Assembly: GCF_009728145.1 (NCBI RefSeq)
Contig: NZ_WOCA01000001.1
Coordinates: forward strand, 310,001 to 374,000
Length of the DNA: 64,000 nt
Reading direction: 5' to 3'
DNA from: Ornithinibacillus caprae
GTDB taxonomy: Bacteria; Bacillota; Bacilli; Bacillales; Amphibacillaceae
Positions 2,114 through 64,000 of the stretch are shown one piece after another. The stretch's first letter is position 1. Each line of letters starts with the position of its first letter. The position numbers and the translations under genes were made by a program. The notes beneath the pieces are model-generated. The model saw nothing but the letters and a program-made list of their open reading frames with translations. It was not told the origin of the DNA and made no database searches.

Positions 2114-3106
2114 ATGGAATTTGGAGATTTAATGCCGTTAATTTTAATTGCGGTGATCTTAATTGCAGTTGCAATATTATTTACATTTATACCAGTTGCA
2201 CTATGGATTAGTGCTTTAGCTGCTGGTGTTCGAGTTGGTATTTTACAACTAATTGGTATGCGTTTAAGACGAGTTGTGCCTAACCGAGTGATTAATCCAC
2301 TTATTAAGGCACATAAAGCGGGATTAGATGTATCTACACCACAATTGGAAAGCCACTATTTAGCAGGTGGTAATGTAGACCGAGTTGTCAATGCATTAAT
2401 TGCAGCTCACCGAGCAAATATAGATTTAAGCTTCGAACGTGCTGCAGCGATTGATTTAGCTGGTCGTGACGTATTAGAAGCTGTGCAAATGAGTGTTAAT
2501 CCAAAGGTAATTGAAACACCATTTATTGCTGGTATTGCTATGGATGGTATTGAAGTAAAAGCGAAGGCGAGAATTACTGTGCGTGCCAACATTGATCGAC
2601 TCGTTGGGGGTGCAGGAGAAGATACGGTTATCGCACGTGTTGGTGAAGGTGTTGTAAGTACAATTGGTAGTTCAGAAACTCATGCTCAAGTACTAGAAAA
2701 TCCTGATTCTATTTCACATAATGTACTCAGCAAAGGGTTAGATGCAGGTACAGCTTTTGAAATCCTATCGATTGATATTGCTGACGTTGATATCGGCAAA
2801 AACATTGGAGCTATTCTACAAACCGACCAAGCTGAAGCAGATAAAAACATTGCTCAAGCGAAAGCAGAAGAACGTCGTGCAATGGCGGTTGCCCAAGAAC
2901 AAGAAATGGTTGCTCGTGTTCAAGAAATGCGTGCTAAAGTTGTGGAGGCAGAAGCAGAAGTACCACAGGCACTTGCTGAAGCATTACGTTCAGGTAAGAT
3001 GGGTGTTATGGATTATATGAATTACCAAAATATTGATGCTGACACAGATATGCGTGATTCAATTGGTAAGTTAACAAAAGATGATCATGATGAAAATGAT
3101 AAATAA
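2114..3106 (+). CDS. floA: Flotillin-like protein FloA
   Basis: 330 residues. A single N-terminal membrane segment (about 8-35) precedes a long conserved region near identical to Bacillus FloA ([40 protein letters not shown]) and a coiled-coil tail rich in Ala/Glu. Flotillins organise ordered membrane domains and here presumably partner with the NfeD protein upstream. ATG at 2114 has better spacing from GGAGG (2101-2105) than the in-frame ATG at 2111. It sits in the same operon, 57 bases after yqeZ. Confidence 0.95.
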
Positions 3107-3138
3107 TTATCAACTTATATTTGGAAGGAGGGGTTAGG

Positions 3139-3654
3139 TTGGGAGAGTTAATTGATTTTTTTCTTGGTAATATTTTTTTCTTAGTGATTGTTATTGGAGC
3201 TCTTTTGAGGCTATTTAGTGGAAATTCCAATCAAAATAAAGAAGAGCAAAGAAAAACACAACAAAACAGACCAAGACAACAAACGAATCCTAGACCATCC
3301 ACATCCCCTTCACGCGCGAATACGCAAAGGGACGTAAAAACGAATACAACGGCTAGTCAGTCTATCTCGGTAGAGGAGCAACAAAAGCAGCAACTCGAAA
3401 AGTTAGCAGGTAGAATGAATACGAAAATGGAGCAGTCTATAGAAGATCTTTCAACGAATACGACTGACCTAGGTGAGACCCTTAAGCGACCTAAAAAAGA
3501 AGCAACCTCACTTAAGGAAGAAGATTATCGAAAACGAATAAAAGGTAACTTATCTCGTGATGGGCTGGTAAACAGTGTGATTATGGCTGAAGTATTGGGA
3601 GCACCTCGTGCACGAAAGCCATATCGTAGTGTTATATCCGAACGTAATAAGTAA
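3139..3654 (+). CDS. YqfB-position membrane protein of the floA operon
   Basis: 171 residues from TTG at 3139, which follows the strong GGAAGGAGGGG site at 3123-3133; an upstream in-frame TTG at 3121 overlaps that site and is rejected. One N-terminal membrane helix (about 3-25) is followed by a Gln/Asn/Thr/Lys-rich, probably disordered stretch and a short conserved C-terminal helical region (LVNSVIMAEVLGAPRARKPY). It holds the place of B. subtilis yqfB, the third gene of the SigW-controlled floA operon, but is longer. No function is assigned. Confidence 0.7.
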   Translation: MGELIDFFLGNIFFLVIVIGALLRLFSGNSNQNKEEQRKTQQNRPRQQTNPRPSTSPSRANTQRDVKTNTTASQSISVEEQQKQQLEKLAGRMNTKMEQSIEDLSTNTTDLGETLKRPKKEATSLKEEDYRKRIKGNLSRDGLVNSVIMAEVLGAPRARKPYRSVISERNK

Positions 3655-3914: not shown

Positions 3915-4196
3915 GTGAAAAAAATGCATCAACGAATTCGACCTTGGTTAATAAAAAAATTTGCACTTCCTTCCGATGTAATTCTAGAACTACCTAGAAT
4001 TACCATTATTGGTCAACTACATGTATATATTGAAAATCATAAAGGTTTAGCAGTCTTTACTGATAATGAACTAAAATTAAAAACAACAAAAGGGTACATA
4101 CAAATAAAAGGCTCATCTTTTGTATTAAAGATGATGTTGCCAGAAGAAATATTATTAGAGGGGAAAATTTCAGATGTGAAGTTTATCTCTAATTAG
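3915..4196 (+). CDS. yqfC: Sporulation protein YqfC
   Basis: 93 residues, starting at GTG after the AGGAGG at 3901. The sequence has a basic N-terminus and the YqfC/YabP-type beta-rich core (IVIGQLHVYIENHKG-like, DNELKLKTTKGYIQIKG). In B. subtilis yqfC is transcribed in the mother cell with yqfD and is needed for spore formation; the molecular role is not known. It is followed 30 bases later by yqfD, and probably forms an operon with it. No confident SigE promoter was found by eye. Confidence 0.88.
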   Translation: MKKMHQRIRPWLIKKFALPSDVILELPRITIIGQLHVYIENHKGLAVFTDNELKLKTTKGYIQIKGSSFVLKMMLPEEILLEGKISDVKFISN

Positions 4197-4226
4197 AATA
4201 ATAAGTGATTTTTTTGGGGGGCAAAC

Positions 4227-5453
4227 ATGAAGCAAATACAAGGATCGTATATCACTGGATATGTAACTGTTTTGGTAGAAGGTAATATGCCCGAATTATT
4301 TTTTCAGGATTGTATAAATAACGGTATTACTGTATGGGAAATAAAAAGGGAGGCCCCAAACGCTTGTAGTGGGAATGTAAAATTAAAAGATATCGGAAAA
4401 ATAAAATCCTTGAGAAGAGGGAAAAATTATAAGGTATCTTTTACTCGCAAAAAAGGATACCCTTTTATACTTTCCCGGTTTTTTAGAAGAAAAGAAATTG
4501 TAATTGGAATGGCATTGAGTATTCTTCTCATTTTCTTCTTATCGAATATTATCTGGAAGGTCGAAATAACAGGTGTACCAAAAGATATTGAAGAAAAAAT
4601 AGATAAGCAACTAAGAGATTATGGTGTCCATCCGGGAGCTTGGTCTTTTACATTAGACAAGCCTGGGGAAATTCAGAGAAACTTAACCGAAGACGTACCA
4701 GAGCTTTTATGGGTTGGTGTGCATAAAAAGGGGACAACCTTTTTCTTAGAGGGTGTTGAAAAAACGATAGTGGAAGAGGGTGAAGTTGAAGGACCTCGGG
4801 ACTTAGTCGCATCGAAAAAAGGTGTCATTAAGAACATGTATGTTTCTAAAGGACTCCCTAAAGTAGAAATAAACGACTATGTTGAACCTGGAGATGTATT
4901 AGTATCTGGTACGTTAAATGAAGTGGAAGAGCAGGGAGAAGATGAGGAAGAGATTAACGAAAAAGAAAAAAGAATCTTGGTGGCTTCAGAAGGTGAAATC
5001 ATAGCTAATACTTGGTATGAAACCAATGTTACCATTCCACTTCAAGCAAATTATGAATTGCTTACCGGAAAACATGAAAAAAAATACTTTATTGGGTTTG
5101 GAGACTTTCATCTACCAATATGGGGATTTGGTTCTCCAGAATATGAGGATATACATCGCGAAGATACCAAGAATTCCTTATACTTCTTTAAGTGGAAATT
5201 ACCAATTAGTTTTATTGAAACTACATTGAGTGAAAAAACGTATAATAAGATTGAACGGACGAAGGAGCAAGCTATTCAAGCAGGTATCGAACAAGCTAAA
5301 CAAGAATTACAATTACAATTAGGACCAGACGCTGTTATAACATCAGAAAAAGTTTTGCATGAATCTGAAGAGAGTGGTAAAGTAAAATTAAGCTTATATC
5401 TCACAGTAGAAGAAGATATTGCAAAAGCACAACCAATAAATCAAGGAGATTGA
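4227..5453 (+). CDS. yqfD: Sporulation protein YqfD
   Basis: 408 residues. A soluble N-terminal part with basic stretches is followed by one strong membrane helix (about 88-108) and a large, presumably extracytoplasmic region with an acidic insert (EEQGEDEEEINEKEKR). This matches the YqfD family of stage IV-type sporulation proteins found beside phoH across Bacillaceae. The RBS is an unusual GGGGGG run at 4214-4220. The stop codon lies just ahead of phoH, so translation is probably coupled. Confidence 0.9.
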   Translation: MKQIQGSYITGYVTVLVEGNMPELFFQDCINNGITVWEIKREAPNACSGNVKLKDIGKIKSLRRGKNYKVSFTRKKGYPFILSRFFRRKEIVIGMALSILLIFFLSNIIWKVEITGVPKDIEEKIDKQLRDYGVHPGAWSFTLDKPGEIQRNLTEDVPELLWVGVHKKGTTFFLEGVEKTIVEEGEVEGPRDLVASKKGVIKNMYVSKGLPKVEINDYVEPGDVLVSGTLNEVEEQGEDEEEINEKEKRILVASEGEIIANTWYETNVTIPLQANYELLTGKHEKKYFIGFGDFHLPIWGFGSPEYEDIHREDTKNSLYFFKWKLPISFIETTLSEKTYNKIERTKEQAIQAGIEQAKQELQLQLGPDAVITSEKVLHESEESGKVKLSLYLTVEEDIAKAQPINQGD

Positions 5454-5455
5454 TT

Positions 5456-6415
5456 ATGTCTGAAAACCTAAATATGATTGATCTACATCTATCTAGTCCA
5501 AATGAGGCACTAGAGCTCTTTGGTACCAATGATAAATTTTTAAAACATATTGAAGAAAATTTAAATGTTTCCATCGTTTCTAGAGGCGAAAAAGTAGGCG
5601 TCTCTGGTAGTGATGAAGATATAAAAATGGTTCAAGATATACTATTAACATTACTAACTGTTGTACGTAAAGGATTAACGATTTCGGAACGGGATATTGT
5701 TTATGCTATTGATTTAGCAAAACAAGGTAAGATTGACCAATTTGAGACATTGTTTGAAGATGAAATTACTAAAAATGTAAAAGGTAAATCAATTCGAGTT
5801 AAAACACTCGGTCAAAAAAGTTATATTCAAGCTATCAAATCAAATGATCTTGTATTTGGAATTGGACCAGCTGGTACCGGTAAAACTTATTTGGCAGTTG
5901 TGATGGCTGTACATGCCTTGAAAAATGGAGCAGTGAAACGAATTATTTTAACCCGCCCAGCAGTTGAGGCTGGAGAAAGCCTAGGGTTTTTACCTGGTGA
6001 TTTAAAAGAAAAGGTAGATCCATATTTAAGACCATTATATGATGCACTTCATGATGTTCTTGGTGCTGAACATACATTACGATTGATTGAAAGAGAAACA
6101 ATTGAAGTTGCACCACTTGCATACATGAGAGGGAGAACTTTAGATGATGCGTTTGTCATTCTCGATGAGGCGCAAAATACGACTCCAGAACAAATGAAAA
6201 TGTTTTTAACACGTTTGGGCTTTGGTTCAAAAATGGTAATTACAGGAGATATTACGCAAGTTGACTTGCCAAAGGGAGTAAGCTCAGGATTACGTGCGGC
6301 GAGTGAATTGCTTTCTGATATAAAGGGAATTTCCTTTATCCACCTAACACAAACAGATGTGGTGAGGCACCCTTTAGTACAACGCATTATTAATGCATAT
6401 GAACAGAATAAGTAA
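5456..6415 (+). CDS. phoH: PhoH family P-loop ATPase
   Basis: 319 residues. It has an N-terminal KH-like part, Walker A GPAGTGKT (about 138-145) and Walker B VILDEAQN, then the conserved TGDITQVDLP. PhoH-like ATPases are linked to RNA metabolism; together with YbeY downstream this suggests a role in ribosome or rRNA quality control. ATG at 5456 is preferred to the in-frame ATG at 5450 because AAGGAG at 5443-5448 is only one base from the latter. It lies two bases after the yqfD stop. Confidence 0.93.
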   Translation: MSENLNMIDLHLSSPNEALELFGTNDKFLKHIEENLNVSIVSRGEKVGVSGSDEDIKMVQDILLTLLTVVRKGLTISERDIVYAIDLAKQGKIDQFETLFEDEITKNVKGKSIRVKTLGQKSYIQAIKSNDLVFGIGPAGTGKTYLAVVMAVHALKNGAVKRIILTRPAVEAGESLGFLPGDLKEKVDPYLRPLYDALHDVLGAEHTLRLIERETIEVAPLAYMRGRTLDDAFVILDEAQNTTPEQMKMFLTRLGFGSKMVITGDITQVDLPKGVSSGLRAASELLSDIKGISFIHLTQTDVVRHPLVQRIINAYEQNK

Positions 6416-6428
6416 GTTATAGATGAAT

Positions 6429-6459
6429 AGTAAGACCCCATAAAGAGGGTCTTATTTTC
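6429..6459 (+). terminator. Terminator after phoH
   Basis: The stem AAGACCCC / GGGTCTT with a following T-rich tract lies between phoH and pgpH; read-through may be partial. Confidence 0.7.
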
Positions 6460-6491
6460 TATATTTATGTTGAAAATTGGGGGGGATACAA

Positions 6492-8633
6492 GTGAAACTT
6501 AATTTCCAAAAATTATTAGATGCAATTTTCAAGATTAGAACAATATGGATTGCTATTTTTTTACCAGCACTTATTTTAGGCATATTCTTTTTTGGCATTA
6601 CCTTAAATAATGTATTTACTGAAACATATGATATAGAACGCTTTACTAATGCAAAACAAACGATTCGTTCACCGATTACGATTGAGAATGAACAAGAAAC
6701 AGAGCGTAAAACTAGAGAAACGGTTCAAGCTGTAGAGGACCGGTATCTCATTTCTGAAGAAGTGACACATGAACAAGTAGGGTACGTGGAAGAAATATTT
6801 GATGCAATAGAAAAATTAGAAAATGAATTAGTTGATCCGGATGAAACAAGTAATGATGGAGCTCCTGTTGCTTTAACTAATCAGGATAATTTAATTCGCT
6901 TAAAAGAGATATTATCACAAGAAATAGTAGAGAATGTTAATGATTCTTTATTTCTTAAACTGATGGAAATCCCTGTAGAAGAAAGAGAAGAAGGAAAAAA
7001 AGTCTTTTTGGCTTCCATGACTGATGTATTAGAAAACGGTGTTCGTACGGAAAATAAAAATAGCAGAATTAATGTGGTTAAAGAAAGTGTAAAGTATACG
7101 ACACTTGACCAGGAGCTAATTAATGCATTAGAAGAATTAAGTGAATTCGCTATCGTTGAAAATTCTTTTTATGACGCTGAAAAAACAATGGAGGCACGAA
7201 AAGAGGCTGGCAACAGTGTAGATCCAGTCTTGATAAATGCTGGGGAAATCATTGTACGTGAAGGACAGACTATTACGAATGAAGTATATGAAAAGCTCAA
7301 ATTAGTAGGCTTATTAAACAATGAGCGAAATATTTTTCCTGTAGTTGGTTTAGCCATATTAATATTTATGATTGTAAGTGTGATTACTTATGAAATGAAA
7401 ATACTACATAAAAAAAATAAATTAGATAAAGGTAAGGTATTATCTATTCTACTAGTTAGTATGATCGTTGTTTCCTTAATGAAAGTGGTTAGCTTATACA
7501 CAACACAGACAAATCAATTGTTCTTTATTGTTCCTGTAGCAACAGGAGTATTACTATTAAAACTGTTAATTAATGAACGTCTTGCCATTGTTATGGCTAC
7601 TTTATATGCTATCATAGGTAGTATAATCTTCAATAGTCAAATACCTGGTGCATTAAATGTAGAAGCGGGGATTTATTTCTTCTTTTCTCAAATAGCTGGT
7701 ATTATTTTTCTTCGAAATGTGAAGGATCGATTTGCTATTGTAAAATCTGGTTTAGGAATGTCTTTAGCTAATATATTAACCGTACTATTATTTGTATTTC
7801 TTTCATTTGAAAAATATTCATTACTTGATTTATTAATTTATTCTGGATATGGTGTAGCTTCTGCATTTCTTTCTGCAGTACTTACAATTGGATTATTATC
7901 TTATTTTGAATCCGGATTAGGAATATTATCGGATGTGAAGCTATTGCAATTGTCGAGTCCTAATCAACCATTGTTAAAAAAGATCTTAACAGAAGCGCCA
8001 GGAACATATCATCATTCAATAATGGTTGCAAACTTAAGTGAAACAGCTTGTGAAGCAATTGGTGCAAATGGTTTGTTAGCACGAGTAGGAGCATATTATC
8101 ATGATATTGGAAAGACGATTAGACCACACTACTTTATTGAGAACCAATTAGCTATTAAGAACCCTCATGATGTAATGTCTCCTAGACAAAGTGCAGAAAT
8201 TATAATAAATCATCCTTATGATGGGGCAGAATTATTAAAGAAGCATAAATTACCAAAGGAAATTATTGATATAGCAATGCAACATCATGGAACAACACTT
8301 TTAAAGTATTTTTATTATAAAGAAAAGGAAACAAATAAAAATGTAAAAGAAGAGGATTATCGTTATCCGGGTCCAAAACCGAAAACGAAAGAAGCGGCAA
8401 TTATCTGTATCTGTGATTCAGTTGAAGCAGCTGTACGGTCATTAAAAGAGCCTACCGAAGAAAAAATTGAAGAAATTGTATCCTCTATCGTTAATGATAG
8501 ACTTATGGATGGGCAATTGGATGAATGCCCACTAACATTGAAAGAAGTAAAAATCATTCATCAAATAATCTGTGAAACATTAAAAGGAATATTCCATTCA
8601 CGCATTCAATATCCAATAAAGGAGGCAAAATAA
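6492..8633 (+). CDS. pgpH: 7TM-HD c-di-AMP phosphodiesterase PgpH
   Basis: 713 residues. It has an N-terminal membrane helix, a large extracellular 7TMR-HDED-type domain (about 45-275), a block of seven membrane helices (about 285-480) and a cytoplasmic HD phosphohydrolase domain. Motifs include HHSIMVANLSE, YYHDIGKT, NPHD and HHG. PgpH hydrolyses c-di-AMP, a regulator of potassium, osmotic and wall homeostasis. GTG at 6492 follows a GGGGGGG run at 6479-6485; the upstream in-frame TTG at 6477 is too close to serve. Its TAA overlaps the ybeY ATG. Confidence 0.93.
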   Translation: MKLNFQKLLDAIFKIRTIWIAIFLPALILGIFFFGITLNNVFTETYDIERFTNAKQTIRSPITIENEQETERKTRETVQAVEDRYLISEEVTHEQVGYVEEIFDAIEKLENELVDPDETSNDGAPVALTNQDNLIRLKEILSQEIVENVNDSLFLKLMEIPVEEREEGKKVFLASMTDVLENGVRTENKNSRINVVKESVKYTTLDQELINALEELSEFAIVENSFYDAEKTMEARKEAGNSVDPVLINAGEIIVREGQTITNEVYEKLKLVGLLNNERNIFPVVGLAILIFMIVSVITYEMKILHKKNKLDKGKVLSILLVSMIVVSLMKVVSLYTTQTNQLFFIVPVATGVLLLKLLINERLAIVMATLYAIIGSIIFNSQIPGALNVEAGIYFFFSQIAGIIFLRNVKDRFAIVKSGLGMSLANILTVLLFVFLSFEKYSLLDLLIYSGYGVASAFLSAVLTIGLLSYFESGLGILSDVKLLQLSSPNQPLLKKILTEAPGTYHHSIMVANLSETACEAIGANGLLARVGAYYHDIGKTIRPHYFIENQLAIKNPHDVMSPRQSAEIIINHPYDGAELLKKHKLPKEIIDIAMQHHGTTLLKYFYYKEKETNKNVKEEDYRYPGPKPKTKEAAIICICDSVEAAVRSLKEPTEEKIEEIVSSIVNDRLMDGQLDECPLTLKEVKIIHQIICETLKGIFHSRIQYPIKEAK

Positions 8634-11821: not shown

Positions 11822-12030
11822 CATGTGATTGCGCTGAAGGAGAATAGTACTTATGGATAGACTATTTTAAGCGAGTCCAGGTTGGTGGGAGCTGGATAAA
11901 TAGTTCATAAGGAATGGCACTCTTGAGCAAGTTAGATATAAAGTGGCTCTGTTACTGTAGAGCAAGTAGGGTGGAACCGCGGATTAAAACCGTCCCTATG
12001 TCCTTGAGACATAGAGGCGGTTTTTTTATA
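11822..12030 (+). ncRNA. T-box leader, glycine-specific
   Basis: The leader contains a Stem I with paired CTTATG/CATAAG. The AG-bulge/GGTGGGAGC region and a likely GGC (Gly) specifier in AATGGCACTC are also present, followed by the T-box core AGGGTGGAACCGCG at 11968-11981. Uncharged tRNA-Gly binding would favour the antiterminator and allow glyQ-glyS transcription. The specifier matches the downstream glycyl-tRNA synthetase genes. Confidence 0.92.
11987..12028 (+). terminator. T-box terminator
   Basis: The stem ACCGTCCCTATGTC / GACATAGAGGCGGT is followed by TTTTTTT. It is mutually exclusive with the T-box antiterminator. Confidence 0.9.
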
Positions 12031-30030: not shown

Positions 30031-30105
30031 TCCACAGTAGCTCAGTGGTAGAGCTATCGGCTGTTAACCGATCGGTCGTAGGTTCGAATCCTACCTGTGG
30101 AGCCA
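30031..30105 (+). tRNA. tRNA-Asn (GTT)
   Basis: 75 bases with a complete cloverleaf: acceptor TCCACAG/CTGTGGA, anticodon GTT at 30063-30065, T-loop GGTTCGAATC and an encoded CCA. Confidence 0.97.
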
Positions 30106-30108
30106 TTT

Positions 30109-30185
30109 GGCGGCGTAGCTCAGCTGGCGAGAGCGTACGGTTCATACCCGTGAGGTCGGGGGTTCGATCCCCTCCGCCGCCACCA
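30109..30185 (+). tRNA. tRNA-Met (CAT), elongator type
   Basis: 77 bases, acceptor GGCGGCG/CGCCGCC, anticodon CAT at 30143-30145, encoded CCA. A fully paired first acceptor base pair argues against initiator tRNA. It is close to the Bacillus elongator Met gene. Confidence 0.92.
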
Positions 30186-30204
30186 AATAAATATATTTAT
30201 CTAT

Positions 30205-30281
30205 GGCGGTCGTGGCGAAGTGGTTAACGCACCGGATTGTGGCTCCGGCATTCGTGGGTTCGATTCCCACCGGTCGCCCCA
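30205..30281 (+). tRNA. tRNA-His (GTG)
   Basis: 77 bases including the extra 5' G-1 opposite C73 that identifies tRNA-His. Anticodon GTG at 30239-30241, encoded CCA. Confidence 0.96.
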
Positions 30282-30295
30282 TATATTTTAATCAA

Positions 30296-30372
30296 GGACC
30301 CTTAGCTCAGTTGGTTAGAGCTATCGGCTCATAACCGATCGGTCGCAGGTTCGAGTCCTGCAGGGTCCACCA
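30296..30372 (+). tRNA. tRNA-Ile2 (CAT, lysidine type) probable
   Basis: 77 bases, acceptor GGACCCT/AGGGTCC, anticodon CAT at 30330-30332, encoded CCA. The GGACC...TTAGCTCAGTTGGTTAGAGC body resembles Bacillus tRNA-Ile2 (lysidine-modified CAT) more than either Met tRNA; the identity is inferred. Confidence 0.85.
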
Positions 30373-30382
30373 TTAATTATTC

Positions 30383-30475
30383 GGAGGTATACCCAAGTCT
30401 GGCTGAAGGGATCGGTCTTGAAAACCGACAGGCGGGTCAAACCGCGCGGGGGTTCGAATCCCTCTACCTCCTCCA
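30383..30475 (+). tRNA. tRNA-Ser (TGA)
   Basis: 93 bases with a long variable arm, acceptor GGAGGTA/TACCTCC and anticodon TGA at 30419-30421. The discriminator before CCA reads T instead of the G usual in tRNA-Ser. Confidence 0.93.
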
Positions 30476-30480
30476 TACAT

Positions 30481-30598
30481 ATTGTTAGCTCGGTAGCTGA
30501 CCGCACACATCTCGAATAATCAACTATATGCACTGTCCCGAAGCACAAAGCTTCTCTGAATATAGCTAGCAGATGCAGGGACACATTAGCCAAACAAT
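30481..30598 (+). ncRNA. Structured element before tRNA-Phe, related to the 160-bp repeat core
   Basis: It shares CCCGAAGCAC, GAATA and AGATGnAGGG with the tRNA-Asn repeats. TGTCCC (30534) pairs with GGGACA (30578), enclosing a GAAGC/GCTTC hairpin (30540-30554); ATTGTT (30481) pairs with AACAAT (30593). A tRNA-Phe-like start, AGCTCGGTAGCT, lies at its left end. Function unknown. Confidence 0.6.
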
Positions 30599-30635
30599 AA
30601 TTAGGGGCAATAGACTCAGTAAAAGTTCAATACAT

Positions 30636-30711
30636 GGCTCGGTAGCTCAGTCGGTAGAGCAAAGGACTGAAAATCCTTGTGTCGGCGGTTCGATTCCGTC
30701 CCGAGCCACCA
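30636..30711 (+). tRNA. tRNA-Phe (GAA)
   Basis: 76 bases, acceptor GGCTCGG/CCGAGCC, anticodon GAA at 30669-30671, encoded CCA. Last tRNA of the cluster. Confidence 0.97.
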
Positions 30712-55436: not shown

Positions 55437-55519
55437 GAACGCGATTAAAAAATAGAGTTTTACATTCAATACATAGGTTAGTATAACCAAAATAATCATT
55501 TTTCATAAAAGGCGAATGA

Positions 55520-55733
55520 ATACAAGGGGAGAGATTATTTATAGCTACGTATTAAAAGCTATAAATAACGCCGAAGGAGCAAGCGTTAACACGTGAATCT
55601 CTCAGGCAAAAAGACTCTTGTAGGACGCAACTCTGGAGAGTGTTTACATCTTCATGTAAACCACCCACGAAGCAAGTATCTATCCCTCTATAGTGATGGT
55701 ATTCGGTAGATACGCAACTTTCTGGTTTAAGGA
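55520..55733 (+). ncRNA. Tandem glycine riboswitch
   Basis: The first aptamer has GCCGAAGGAGCAAGC, CTCTCAGGCAAAAAGAC and ACTCTGGAGAG; the second follows from about 55650 with CACGAAGCAAGTATC and TTTCTGGTTTAAGGACAGAG. Glycine binding by the pair normally turns on the cleavage system genes. The 55286-55861 gap holds this RNA, its promoter and a terminator. Confidence 0.92.
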
Positions 55734-55734
55734 C

Positions 55735-55773
55735 AGAGATTTTTCTGATTACAGTAAAATCTCTATTTTTTTA
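55735..55773 (+). terminator. Expression-platform terminator of the glycine riboswitch
   Basis: AGAGATTTT pairs with AAAATCTCT, followed by TTTTTTT. It competes with the aptamer 2 P1 region. Confidence 0.82.
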
Positions 55774-60728: not shown

Positions 60729-61520
60729 ATGTCGGCGGTTGTTGAAAAAATGAATAGTATTAATGTGGAAATGTTAAATGAGGATATCAAGCTTTTTCCA
60801 CAAGTACATCCAATTACTGGTGATATGAAATTAACACATAAAGGTGTATCGAGATTAGTAATGTTGGATCGTTATGCTTTTAAAGACACAGAGAAAAAGA
60901 CGTTAAAAGAAGGTGACTTCGTCGTTTTAACTGTAAAAGCAGATCCGAAATTTCCAGCACGTGGGTATGGATTTGTAAAATCTATTGATTGGATTAACAA
61001 AGAAGCAATCATTAAGGTTGACCCAGAATTTCTAACTGTTTTGGATGGTGAAGAGGCAACTACTGGTGAGGTGAAACGAGGATTAGATGTCATTGATAAG
61101 CCTTTAGAAGTGTTCTATGAGCAAATTGCTAAACGTAATGCAACAGGGCTAGCAAGTGTTGAAACAACCGAAGAAAAGAAACAAGAATGGGTTGAAAAAT
61201 TTAACAAAGAATTAGCAAGCTTAAATTTCATTCCTGCTGGTAGGGTGTTATACGGTGCAGGGGCTGAAACAGATGTTACATACTTCAATTGTTATGTAAT
61301 GCCTTATATTAAGGATTCTCGTGAAGGAATTTCCGACCATCGTAAACAGGTCATGGAAATTATGAGTAGAGGTGGCGGTGTTGGTACGAATGGATCAACG
61401 TTACGTCCTCGAAATACGTTAGCAAAAGGTGTTAATGGAAAGTCTTCTGGATCTGTATCATGGTTAGATGACATTGCAAAGCTAACGCATTTAGTGGAAC
61501 AGGGTGGGTCAAGACGTGGT
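60729..61520 (+). CDS. nrdJ: B12-dependent ribonucleotide reductase, exon 1
   Basis: 264 residues from ATG at 60729 after AAGGAGTGAGG; the open frame from 60699 is a longer non-coding extension. It holds the N-terminal part of adenosylcobalamin-dependent class II reductase (GRVLYGAGAE, MSRGGGVGTNGSTLRP) up to LVEQGGSRRG. The intact family motif GGSRRGAQM is cut after the last Gly. The frame then reads K-E-A and stops inside the intron, so splicing is needed for function. The 3' exon begins at 62273. Confidence 0.93.
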
Positions 61521-62272
61521 AAAGAAGCATAGTGTGCCTCGTCTATAAAAAAACCTCGTGAACTGCTGGAAAATCTTTTTTAGTTTTACACATGTTATAT
61601 ACATCTAGATTGTGCACGCTATTAAATAATTTCTAGGATGATTAACATATGAAACTATAGGATGCTAAAGAAAGTCAAAGTTGTAGAATTTGTGATTTTA
61701 ATATATCTCTTAATAAACAAGGTCGTTTTACATCACATTTATTAAAGGAACATGACATATCACTTGATAGATACTTAAAAAAATATTTTTCACCGTCTAG
61801 AAGATTTAAAATGCTCTTACGAATTATAGAGTGTGATGGTGATTATTGGCATGCTAATCCTAAATTTTATAAAGAACTAGCAGATTGGCAAGTCAAACGA
61901 AAACAAACTGACTTTGAAAAAAATGTGATTGCTCTAAGGAATGGATTTCGAATCGTCCGATTTTGGGAAGATAATATCATAAATAACTTTGATTTTATAA
62001 AAGGCATCATACATGACTTGCTGGCTACAACGTAACTGGAAACGGTAGGCGTGAATGCTTAAAAACAGCAAGTGGATAAAGACGATCAGCAGCCAAGCTC
62101 CTTTCAAATGGAGAAGGTTCAACGACCATCGAAAGCACGCTAATGAAGCGGAAGTGAGTAGAGTAGGAATCAAGTGATTCCGAAGCGCGAGGACATCCAA
62201 ACAGGATGTAAGATATGGTCTGAACTCTAAGGTGACTTAGAGAGCTGAATTAACGATTCAGCGAAACATTTG
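61521..62272 (+). mobile_element. Group I intron in nrdJ
   Basis: 752 bases. The upstream exon ends in U; the intron ends in G. P1: GACGTGGU of the exon pairs with the guide GCCUCGUC at 61536-61543, with U.G at the splice site. P6 CTCC/GGAG near 62098-62114. P7 GACCAT (62124-62129)/ATGGTC (62215-62220). P8-like ACATCC/GGATGT, then stems CTCTAAG/CTTAGAG and GCTGAAT/ATTCAGC. Q-like GATCAGCAGCCAAGC, R GTTCAACGACCATC and S AAGATATGGTCTGA fit a group I core, probably subgroup IA. Confidence 0.92.
61649..62035 (+). pseudogene. Decayed Vsr-like homing endonuclease in the intron
   Basis: The frame starts ATG AAA CTA TAG, with a stop at codon 4, then is open for 125 codons. An N-terminal zinc-knuckle-like CRIC...HLLKEH region resembles ROS/MucR-type DNA-binding domains of intron endonucleases. 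The C-terminal part has the Vsr/EDxHD-type core IECDGDYWHANP and GFRIVRFWEDNI. The usual middle region is missing. It is probably non-functional, although an internal ATG at 61811 leaves a 74-residue frame. Confidence 0.75.
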
Positions 62273-64000
62273 GCACAAATGATAATGTTAGTGGACTCTC
62301 ATCCTGATATTATAGAATTCATTATTTCTAAAATGCAAAATCCTAGAATATTACGTTATCTAATTGAAAACACAGAGGATGAGCAAATTAAGCGTTTAGC
62401 TCAAGAAAAACTAAAATTCACACCCCTTACAGAAACTGAGACAGACCTTTACCAAGGAATTCTTAACTACAAAAATATTCCTGGTCAAGGTGGTTTTACA
62501 AGTGCTGCAATTCGAGAAGCAGAGGAAAAATTAAGAACAGGCGGAACGTACTCTGTTCAAAATTCTGAATTCTTAACAGGTGCAAATATTTCTGTTTGTA
62601 TCACAAAAGAATTTATGGATGCTGTTGAAAACGATGGGATGTATGAACTACGTTTTCCTGATGTAGAAAATTATACAACGGAAGAGATGAAGGCATATAA
62701 CGAAGAATGGCACAATGTTGGTGATGTTCGTAAGTGGGAAGAAATGGGCTATGGTGTACGTGTACATCGGAAAATAAAAGCAAAAGAGCTTTGGAATTTA
62801 ATTAATGTTTGTGCAACGTATTCTGCAGAACCAGGAATCTTTTTCATTGATAATGCAAATGACATGACGAATGCAAAAGCATATGGTGATCAAGTTGTTG
62901 CTACGAATCCGTGTGGCGAGCAACCTCTCGCACCATACAGTGTCTGCAACTTAGCCGCTGTTAACTTAGCAGAAATGGCTGATAAAGAGTCAAAAACCGT
63001 TAACTATGAAAAATTAAAAGAAACTGTACGAATCGGTGTTAGAATGCAGGACAATGTTATTGATGCTACACCATACTTCTTAGAAGAAAATAAAAAACAA
63101 GCACTAGGTGAAAGAAGAATTGGACTAGGTGTTATGGGTCTTCACGATTTATTGATTTATTGTGAAACAGAATATGGATCTGAAGAAGGTAATCAGTTAG
63201 TTGATAAAATATTTGAGATGATTGCTACAACAGCATATCGTGAATCTATTGAACTAGCGAAAGAAAAAGGAAGCTTTCCATTTTTAGTTGGGGATTCAGA
63301 TGAAGAAACAAACAGCTTGCGTGAAGCATTTATTAATACTGGCTATATGAAGAAAATGCCAGAAGATATTCGAGATGATATTTTAAAATATGGTATCCGT
63401 AATTCCCATTTACTAACTGTTGCACCTACTGGAAGCACTGGTACAATGGTTGGCGTATCCACAGGATTAGAACCATACTTCTCTTTCTCCTATTTCAGAA
63501 GTGGAAGACTAGGTAAATTTATTGAAGTAAAAGCGGATATTGTTCAAGAATATCTCGATAGAAATCCAAATGCTGATCCAGAGAATCTTCCAAATTGGTT
63601 CGTGACTGCGATGGAGCTAGATCCAGAAGCACATGCTGATACACAATGTGTTATCCAACGCTGGGTAGATAGCTCTATATCCAAAACAGTTAACGCACCA
63701 AAAGGTTATACCGTAAATCAAGTTGAGCAAGTATACCAAAGGCTATATAACGGTGGAGCAAAAGGCGGTACGGTTTACGTCGATGGAAGCCGTGACTCTC
63801 AAGTATTAACTCTAAAGGCAGAGGAAAATACATTTGGAGAACAAACAGAATTATTTGATGAAGAAACCGAGAAACCAAAAGTAGTATTAATGGATACAAT
63901 TCAGGAACTAGACAAAACAAACGTTACGATCGGCTCAGAAGTCGGAGATACATGTCCAGTTTGTAGAGAAGGTAGCGTTGAAGATATTGGTGGATGTAAT
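62273..64000 (+). CDS. nrdJ: B12-dependent ribonucleotide reductase, exon 2 (3' truncated)
   Basis: 576 codons open to the window edge, beginning AQMIMLVDSHPDIIEF and in phase with exon 1. It holds the catalytic barrel with NPCGEQPLAPYSVCNLA, ATYSAEPGIFFIDNAND and APTGSTGTM, and near the end a CPVCREGSVEDIGGC redox or zinc-type tail. About 840 residues are visible in total, so only a short piece is missing. The enzyme reduces ribonucleotides using adenosylcobalamin without a separate small subunit. Confidence 0.95.

Follow-up and report, generated by a model that had tools for sequence, protein, structure and literature searches.

The stretch of DNA analysed here, i.e., the window, comprises 64,000 nt of contig NZ_WOCA01000001.1 of Ornithinibacillus caprae, and all coordinates below are positions in it on the + strand. 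Near its end lies nrdJ, which is divided into two exons (Table 1), both matched by NF005991, the model for vitamin B12-dependent ribonucleotide reductase. Exon 2 by itself scores 1139 bits against this model (cut-off 854), which identifies the gene as class II (NrdJ), and it ends 42 bases past the window edge, at contig position 374042. The exons are separated by a 752-bp insert between codons 264 and 265, and the original prediction that GGSRRG|AQM is split exactly between codons agrees with the exon ORFs, which end at 61520 and resume at 62273. Both exons are open to their ends in O. caprae, with 91% identity to the intronless nrdJ of genome G101. The genome also contains an uninterrupted nrdE/nrdF pair (PF02867, 547 bits; PF00268, 259.5 bits), so that survival of the host is no proof of nrdJ splicing. 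Elsewhere in the window, a T-box leader lies at 11825-12000, a cluster of six tRNA genes at 30031-30708, and a tandem glycine riboswitch at 55516-55738, upstream of glycine-cleavage-like genes (by eye).

Table 1. Features of the interrupted nrdJ gene in the window, and of two viral contigs that carry related elements
Feature	Position	Strand	Basis or remark
nrdJ exon 1, codons 1-264, C-terminal GGSRRG	60729-61520	+	ORF from ATG 60729; NF005991 E 1.4e-143
P1, 5′ exon strand GACGUGGU, U.G at splice site	61513-61520	+	7/8 paired with 61536-61543
Group I intron, probably subgroup IA-like, first base A, last base G	61521-62272	+	RF00028 E 4.5e-9; same site in relatives; structure
Possible P10, 5′ strand GUGU	61532-61535	+	pairs with 3′ exon GCAC 62273-62276, by eye
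Internal guide GCCUCGUC (P1 3′ strand)	61536-61543	+	pairing in window
P3, 5′ strand CCUCGU	61554-61559	+	with GCGAGG 62187-62192
P4, 5′ strand CUGCUG	61563-61568	+	with CAGCAG 62087-62092
P5, 5′ strand UCUUU	61574-61578	+	with AAAGA 62078-62082
Broken homing endonuclease gene, ATG then TAG at codon 4	61649-62035	+	frame change, large deletion
P5a (62016-62023/62066-62073) and GAAA-capped P5b (62035-62046)	62016-62073	+	relatives' structure, window pairing
P6a, CUCC/GGAG	62098-62113	+	relatives' structure, window pairing
P7, 5′ strand GACCA	62124-62128	+	with UGGUC 62216-62220
P7.1, 62136-62141 with 62147-62149 and 62154-62156, bulge between	62136-62156	+	bulged form by eye
P7.2, GGAAUC/GAUUCC	62166-62181	+	relatives' structure, window pairing
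P8, ACAUCC/GGAUGU	62193-62209	+	relatives' structure, window pairing
P9, CUCUAA/UUAGAG	62225-62242	+	relatives' structure, window pairing
P9.1, GCUGAA/UUCAGC	62244-62262	+	relatives' structure, window pairing
nrdJ exon 2, codons 265 onward, begins AQM	62273-64000	+	ORF; NF005991
Group I introns in class II-like reductase gene, with endonuclease	4250-6250 of viral contig L178		
Intein region in class II-like reductase gene, with endonuclease	3932-7226 of viral contig L179		

A search with Rfam model RF00028 gave a group I match at 61971-62242 (41.8 bits, E 4.5e-9), though this score lies below the curated gathering score of 50, and the intron is therefore missing from the output of a default Rfam scan. 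Six shorter introns at the same site in relatives (309-452 nt; L010, L012, L016, L017, L019 and L023) score 59.5-78.1 bits, whereas three with long endonuclease stretches (L003, L005 and L007) received no RF00028 listing in the same search. Thus, the shortfall tracks the insertion by which the core is divided. In the Rfam alignment, the 5′ core segment begins at 61971 and falls within the endonuclease remnant, whereas comparison with the short relatives locates the 5′ strands of P3, P4 and P5 at 61554-61578. The fold of 61500-62290 has a z-score of −3.5 (20 shuffles).

A common structure was derived from an alignment of 30 same-site introns shorter than 345 nt with their exon flanks, the window intron being left out. 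On these 30 relatives, 97.8% of 2308 cells are paired, 36 of 78 pairs show changes in both partners (vs. 21.3 in shuffles and 7-15 in slid versions of the structure), and 189 cells show such changes (vs. 45.8 in shuffles); on each of five measures the structure scores above every one of the 500 shuffles and six slid versions. P4 is invariant, no pair in P1 or P7 and one pair in P3 is changed on both sides, and the support for these four helices therefore comes mainly from conservation. When transferred to the window, P3, P4, P5, P5a, P5b, P6a, P7, P7.2, P8, P9 and P9.1 all pair, as do seven of the eight positions of P1, the exception being a U-U mismatch common to most relatives. The window intron has the P3-P9 core, including P7, the guanosine-binding helix of group I introns, as well as a U.G at the 5′ splice site (U61520.G61536) and a terminal G (G62272). 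The exon-guide pairing of P1 with its U.G (61513-61520 with 61536-61543) and the pairing of GACCAT with ATGGTC in P7 had both been proposed in the original prediction and are recovered here; likewise, the group I core motifs that it named correspond to core helices that pair in the window and are supported by the comparison.

Subgroup IA is distinguished by two helices, P7.1 and P7.2, that follow the P7 5′ strand and precede the 3′ strand of P3; both are found at this position in the window, suggesting that the intron belongs to this subgroup. P7.1 is the least regular helix in the relatives (78.9 and 90.9% paired), and in the window it forms four of six pairs unbulged and is complete with a bulge (by eye). 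As to the possible P10, its positions 1, 2, 3 and 4 pair in 52, 50, 36 and 16 of 52 distinct introns, respectively; the third exceeds the shuffled mean of 25.7 and maximum of 34 (2000 shuffles, kinship ignored), and the fourth is no better than shuffled. The last intron base is G in 49 of 52 distinct in-register introns, the window intron included. The other three (L029, L030 and L069) end in A with the P7 3′ strand unchanged, and no in-frame alternative was found that accounts for the terminal A in all three.

The RF00028 match, the same-site relatives and the covarying structure together uphold the earlier claim of a group I intron splitting the class II reductase gene. Judged from sequence comparison, the insert is very probably an IA-like, self-splicing group I intron in a chromosomal nrdJ, formerly homing and with its endonuclease now dead. 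That it is instead another element, i.e., an intein, a group II intron, an IStron or an insertion sequence, seems scarcely credible: nrdJ does host different inserts, such as the group II intron around codons 182-188 described below, but the core at 264|265 is group I, an intein at this position is rejected by a length that is no multiple of 3 and by a stop in the exon 1 frame at 61530, and a group II intron is rejected since no group II model matches in the window.

About half of the intron, between P5 and P5a, is occupied by the remnant of a homing endonuclease gene, a component that the original prediction omitted. An early stop, a frame change and a deletion that removes the equivalent of roughly residues 59-224 in the open protein of locus L004 leave no intact ORF; the 124-codon open stretch that remains is an accident of the frame change and the deletion. 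DUF559 matches 61661-62032 with an E of 0.0009, below the cut-off. Among 52 distinct in-register introns, lengths range from 308 to 1258 nt (30 below 345, 11 above 1100 and 11 between), because the P5 extension holds an open endonuclease gene in some, a broken one in others and none in the rest. A frame of about 294-305 aa is open in 4 of the 11 distinct introns above 1100 nt (L004, L086, L090 and L091). In a sample of the order, 6 of 249 genomes encode a relative of the endonuclease at E ≤ 1e-15, the window fragment included, and all six lie in nrdJ at 264; those of G258 and G221 also look open.

The family of the enzyme was approached through the open relative L004, whose predicted structure (pLDDT 78.8, pTM 0.38) is meaningful for the nuclease domain alone. 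A Foldseek search with this model retrieved I-Bth0305I (3r3p, E 7.9e-5), an enzyme from a phage recA intron, and Vsr (1cw0, E 2.7e-4), so that a Vsr/I-Bth0305I-like catalytic fold is predicted for this open relative. A profile search of solved structures returned the unrelated 5xox first (E 0.0016), followed by 3r3p (0.0021), 3hrl and 1cw0, and Pfam Vsr and DUF559 matches to the endonuclease stay below cut-off. The endonuclease alignment contains an invariant ECDGDYWH and other invariant columns. On the predicted model, the open copies resemble I-Bth0305I, of the EDxHD family, in the catalytic-domain fold and, as far as the parts of PMC3943268 consulted describe it, in an elongated multi-domain layout; zinc-finger-like parts of the nrdJ enzyme (by eye) are a further likeness. 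However, identity over the nuclease domain is 21%, the host gene is nrdJ, and the window copy is broken. The consulted parts of PMC8772380 describe the group I introns of R2 genes as carrying mainly HNH and GIY-YIG types.

The junction GACGTGGT is present in 49 of 52 distinct intron-bearing junctions vs. 2 of 73 intronless ones, and the exon base next to the splice site is U in all 52 of the former vs. 20 of 73 of the latter, identical introns or junctions being counted once since the locus collections overlap. The difference falls largely on third codon positions, and some intronless junctions have other arginine codons. Three intron-bearing junctions depart from the octamer: by eye, the usual P1 mismatch becomes G-C in L029, the usual mismatch position pairs and a neighbouring one is unpaired in L071, and the usual position is still mismatched in L030. 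Two introns sit in another register, that of L031 6 bases and that of L126 3 bases upstream, each with a guide that fits its own exon (by eye); both were excluded from the P10 and junction counts. A working P1 would be expected to produce this junction bias, as would an element that enters matching alleles only.

The insertion place is not unique to O. caprae and is a recurrent site in the host order. A DNA search with the complete intron gave matches in 67 of 159 family genomes, and all 30 strong ones (the window's and L003-L031) lie in nrdJ at this place, 29 of them precisely at 264|265 and that of L031 displaced upstream by six bases. The NrdJ query matched 145 of 156 family genomes, and the 103 with a best E below 1e-140 were taken as true NrdJ, the remaining 42 being at 1e-71 or weaker. 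Among the matches listed for these 103, 56 genes have no interruption, whereas a split falls at codons 262-264 in 32, at 480 only in 10 and at 652 only in 3; at least 12 of the 32 are also split at 480. Two other cases are G137 and G154, and the break near codon 216 in G154, considered as an insert, was rejected as a frame change. The comparison with intronless relatives proposed at the outset thus finds the site empty at 262-264 in 71 of the 103 genes, among the matches listed. Across the order, 127 of the 397 genomes sampled match the intron at E ≤ 1e-10, a mixture with other group I cores. The best 30 of these 127 were the loci examined, with five more matches below 1e-30 outside that set, and in all 30 the intron lies in nrdJ at 264, a placement given by both exons in 29 and by exon 1 alone in L088. 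Together with L289-L291, the intron occupies the nrdJ 264 site in 15 families of the order. In the phylum sample, 4 of 398 genomes match at E ≤ 1e-12, and below 1e-30 solely the window's own. O. caprae is represented by a draft genome of 40 contigs, which leaves room in principle for an assembly or contamination artefact; such an origin is next to inconceivable, as the locus is internal to a contig of 534 kb, its exons are colinear, and homologous introns occupy the same site in dozens of other assemblies.

The history at this site was examined on a tree built from a 600-base stretch of exon 2. Of 169 loci, 128 and then 127 were retained (53 with intron), leaving out L027 (stop in exon), loci with less than 560 bases of exon 2 and duplicates; L126, which has no anchor, was left out of the intron tree. 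The presence of the intron needs at least 27 changes on this tree, compared with a mean of 40.3 and a minimum of 30 in 200 shuffles, so presence is patchy, with some inheritance as far as the tree tells. Intron and exon distances are weakly correlated (rho 0.35 over 52 rows, with 999 permutations reaching 0.29 at most), and for 18 of 52 the locus closest by intron is also the closest by exon. This mismatch hints at exchange; since exon 2 adjoins the site and may have been co-converted, exchange is hinted at and unproven.

Further inserts were observed in nrdJ. A second recurrent site is NPCGE|QPL (480|481), where L023 has an RF00028 match at 2314-2624 (81.3 bits); L285 and L287, searched with RF00028 at gathering, gave no match. 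The nrdJ of L287 (G153) is interrupted three times, at 264, 480 and about 652. At 652|653 (APTGS|T), the inserts in L099, L105 and L286 measure 738 and 1149 bases; stops that they contain in the frame of the exon reject the intein that ORF length had suggested for this site, and L099 and L105 gave no RF00028 match at gathering. In L031 (G013), group I matches occur at two places some 10 codons from each other, 262|263 and ~272|273 (77.7 and 86.8 bits), and L130/L283 have, at about codons 182-188, a ~2.9 kb group II intron (RF00029, 55.3 bits; RF02004, 42.3 bits). Outside nrdJ, the O. caprae genome has a second group I intron (L032, 1928-2289, RF00028 72.3 bits), after a flagellin-like ORF (by eye), with a LAGLIDADG_2 endonuclease ORF on the opposite strand at 2460-3488 (E 2.2e-33).

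Links to phages were sought with intron, endonuclease and exon. A close phage source of the intron was rejected on the searches that follow. An exact pattern for the intron 5′ core found 0 matches among viral contigs. The short intron as DNA query matches 364 phage records, none of which covers 80% of the query, and the 30 of 364 listed are in other or unannotated genes. The endonuclease query matches 4 phage records over 21-44% of its length at less than 60% identity; in record H32, the nine annotated features in the matching stretch are all hypothetical proteins. Among viral contigs, 22 encode the exon 1 stretch, and in 22 of 22 the alignment is unbroken over codon 264, none having the intron. 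Viral nrdJ genes are interrupted elsewhere in L261 (near 188, ~0.9 kb) and L273 (at 479|480, ~0.2 kb).

Two viral contigs carry related endonucleases in reductase genes. In L178, two RF00028 matches, both under the gathering score, lie in the reductase gene (46.2 bits, E 4.5e-10; 23 bits, E 0.004), whose 3′ exon is class II (TIGR02504, 438.7 bits, cut-off 399.95). The better-scoring intron comes after ...ARKG, an equivalent site by eye; the 3′ exon joins TIGR02504 at 163, with 16 exon residues preceding the match, and the window exons meet at 157|158. This L178 intron holds an endonuclease that is 42% identical to that of L004. In L179, a related ORF (38% to L004; 41% in the endonuclease alignment) lies between two class II-like reductase parts, the first of which has at its end a match to an intein N-terminal region (TIGR01445, E 1.8e-12, over cut-off). 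This region follows position 165 of TIGR02504, eight positions past that of the intron, and the C-terminal half of the intein was recognised by eye. Dassa et al. reportedly described in 2009 'fractured genes' in which split inteins occur with Vsr-like endonucleases, and L179 likewise pairs an endonuclease ORF, related to the nrdJ one, with an intein region in a reductase; splicing in that system is as protein, whereas in the nrdJ intron it would be as RNA. The sequences of the two contigs suggest that one endonuclease lineage follows the nrdJ site in two vehicles. In the fuller form of this reading, an EDxHD lineage specialised on the conserved class II GGxRRGA stretch is carried by two vehicles that differ in their splicing chemistry, group I introns (in chromosomal nrdJ of the order and in the phage reductase of L178) and a split intein (L179), phages are the likely bridge, bacterial copies decay in place, and a full series of homing stages is found at one site; we hold this tentatively, at slightly less than an even chance, with a little added weight from the confirmed intein region of L179 and the confirmed class II type of the L178 reductase.

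The proposed mechanism is as follows. In the transcript, the 5′ exon end GACGUGGU would pair with the guide GCCUCGUC, a guanosine bound at P7 would attack after U61520, and the freed exon would attack after G62272, joining the nrdJ exons in frame; two-step, guanosine-initiated splicing is the established group I mechanism. The element would formerly have spread by homing through the EDxHD-type endonuclease gene in its P5 extension, with the nrdJ sequence around GGSRRGA, which is conserved, as its presumable target. With this gene dead in O. caprae, the intron would now be an immobile passenger, retained because its ribozyme core, judging from conservation, still works. We therein infer active splicing of the window intron. 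The locus could otherwise be a dead relic, in which the structure is recognisable, splicing is lost, nrdJ is interrupted and the cell relies on nrdEF. The broken endonuclease gene and the presence of nrdE and nrdF elsewhere in the genome fit such a relic; however, the ribozyme helices pair in the window despite sequence divergence from the relatives, and neither nrdJ exon is disrupted or far in sequence from its intronless homologue, so that we consider a relic improbable and favour the splicing intron.

Group I introns are known in phage and bacterial nrdE, nrdF, nrdB, nrdD, nrdA and recA, according to the parts of PMC3984707, PMC3653736 and PMC3019208 consulted, and the literature searched, as far as it was available, also names them in flagellin and dsrA genes. 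From these excerpts, the nrd and recA introns are similar in being group I introns in DNA-metabolism genes, some with homing endonucleases, whereas the host gene in O. caprae is a chromosomal class II nrdJ. For nrdJ, the consulted portion of PMC3653736 mentions inteins from metagenomes and, in a phage, a gene divided over two frames, and names no group I intron, and no report of a group I intron in a chromosomal nrdJ was found in the parts of the literature searched. The RNRdb paper, in the part consulted, counts more than 100 curated group I introns in reductase genes, among which the window intron or its relatives may figure. Thus, the kind of element and the endonuclease family are known, and the nrdJ host site seems unreported in the literature searched.

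On the comparative sequence evidence, the locus appears to be a well-supported example of a chromosomal gene for class II ribonucleotide reductase that is interrupted by a group I intron, and an intron-split nrdJ explains how such genes can end up annotated as two fragments. The homing cycle of gain, decay and loss is best known from yeast mitochondria, and the set of empty and filled alleles with open and broken endonucleases at the nrdJ site provides a bacterial test bed for the same three stages.
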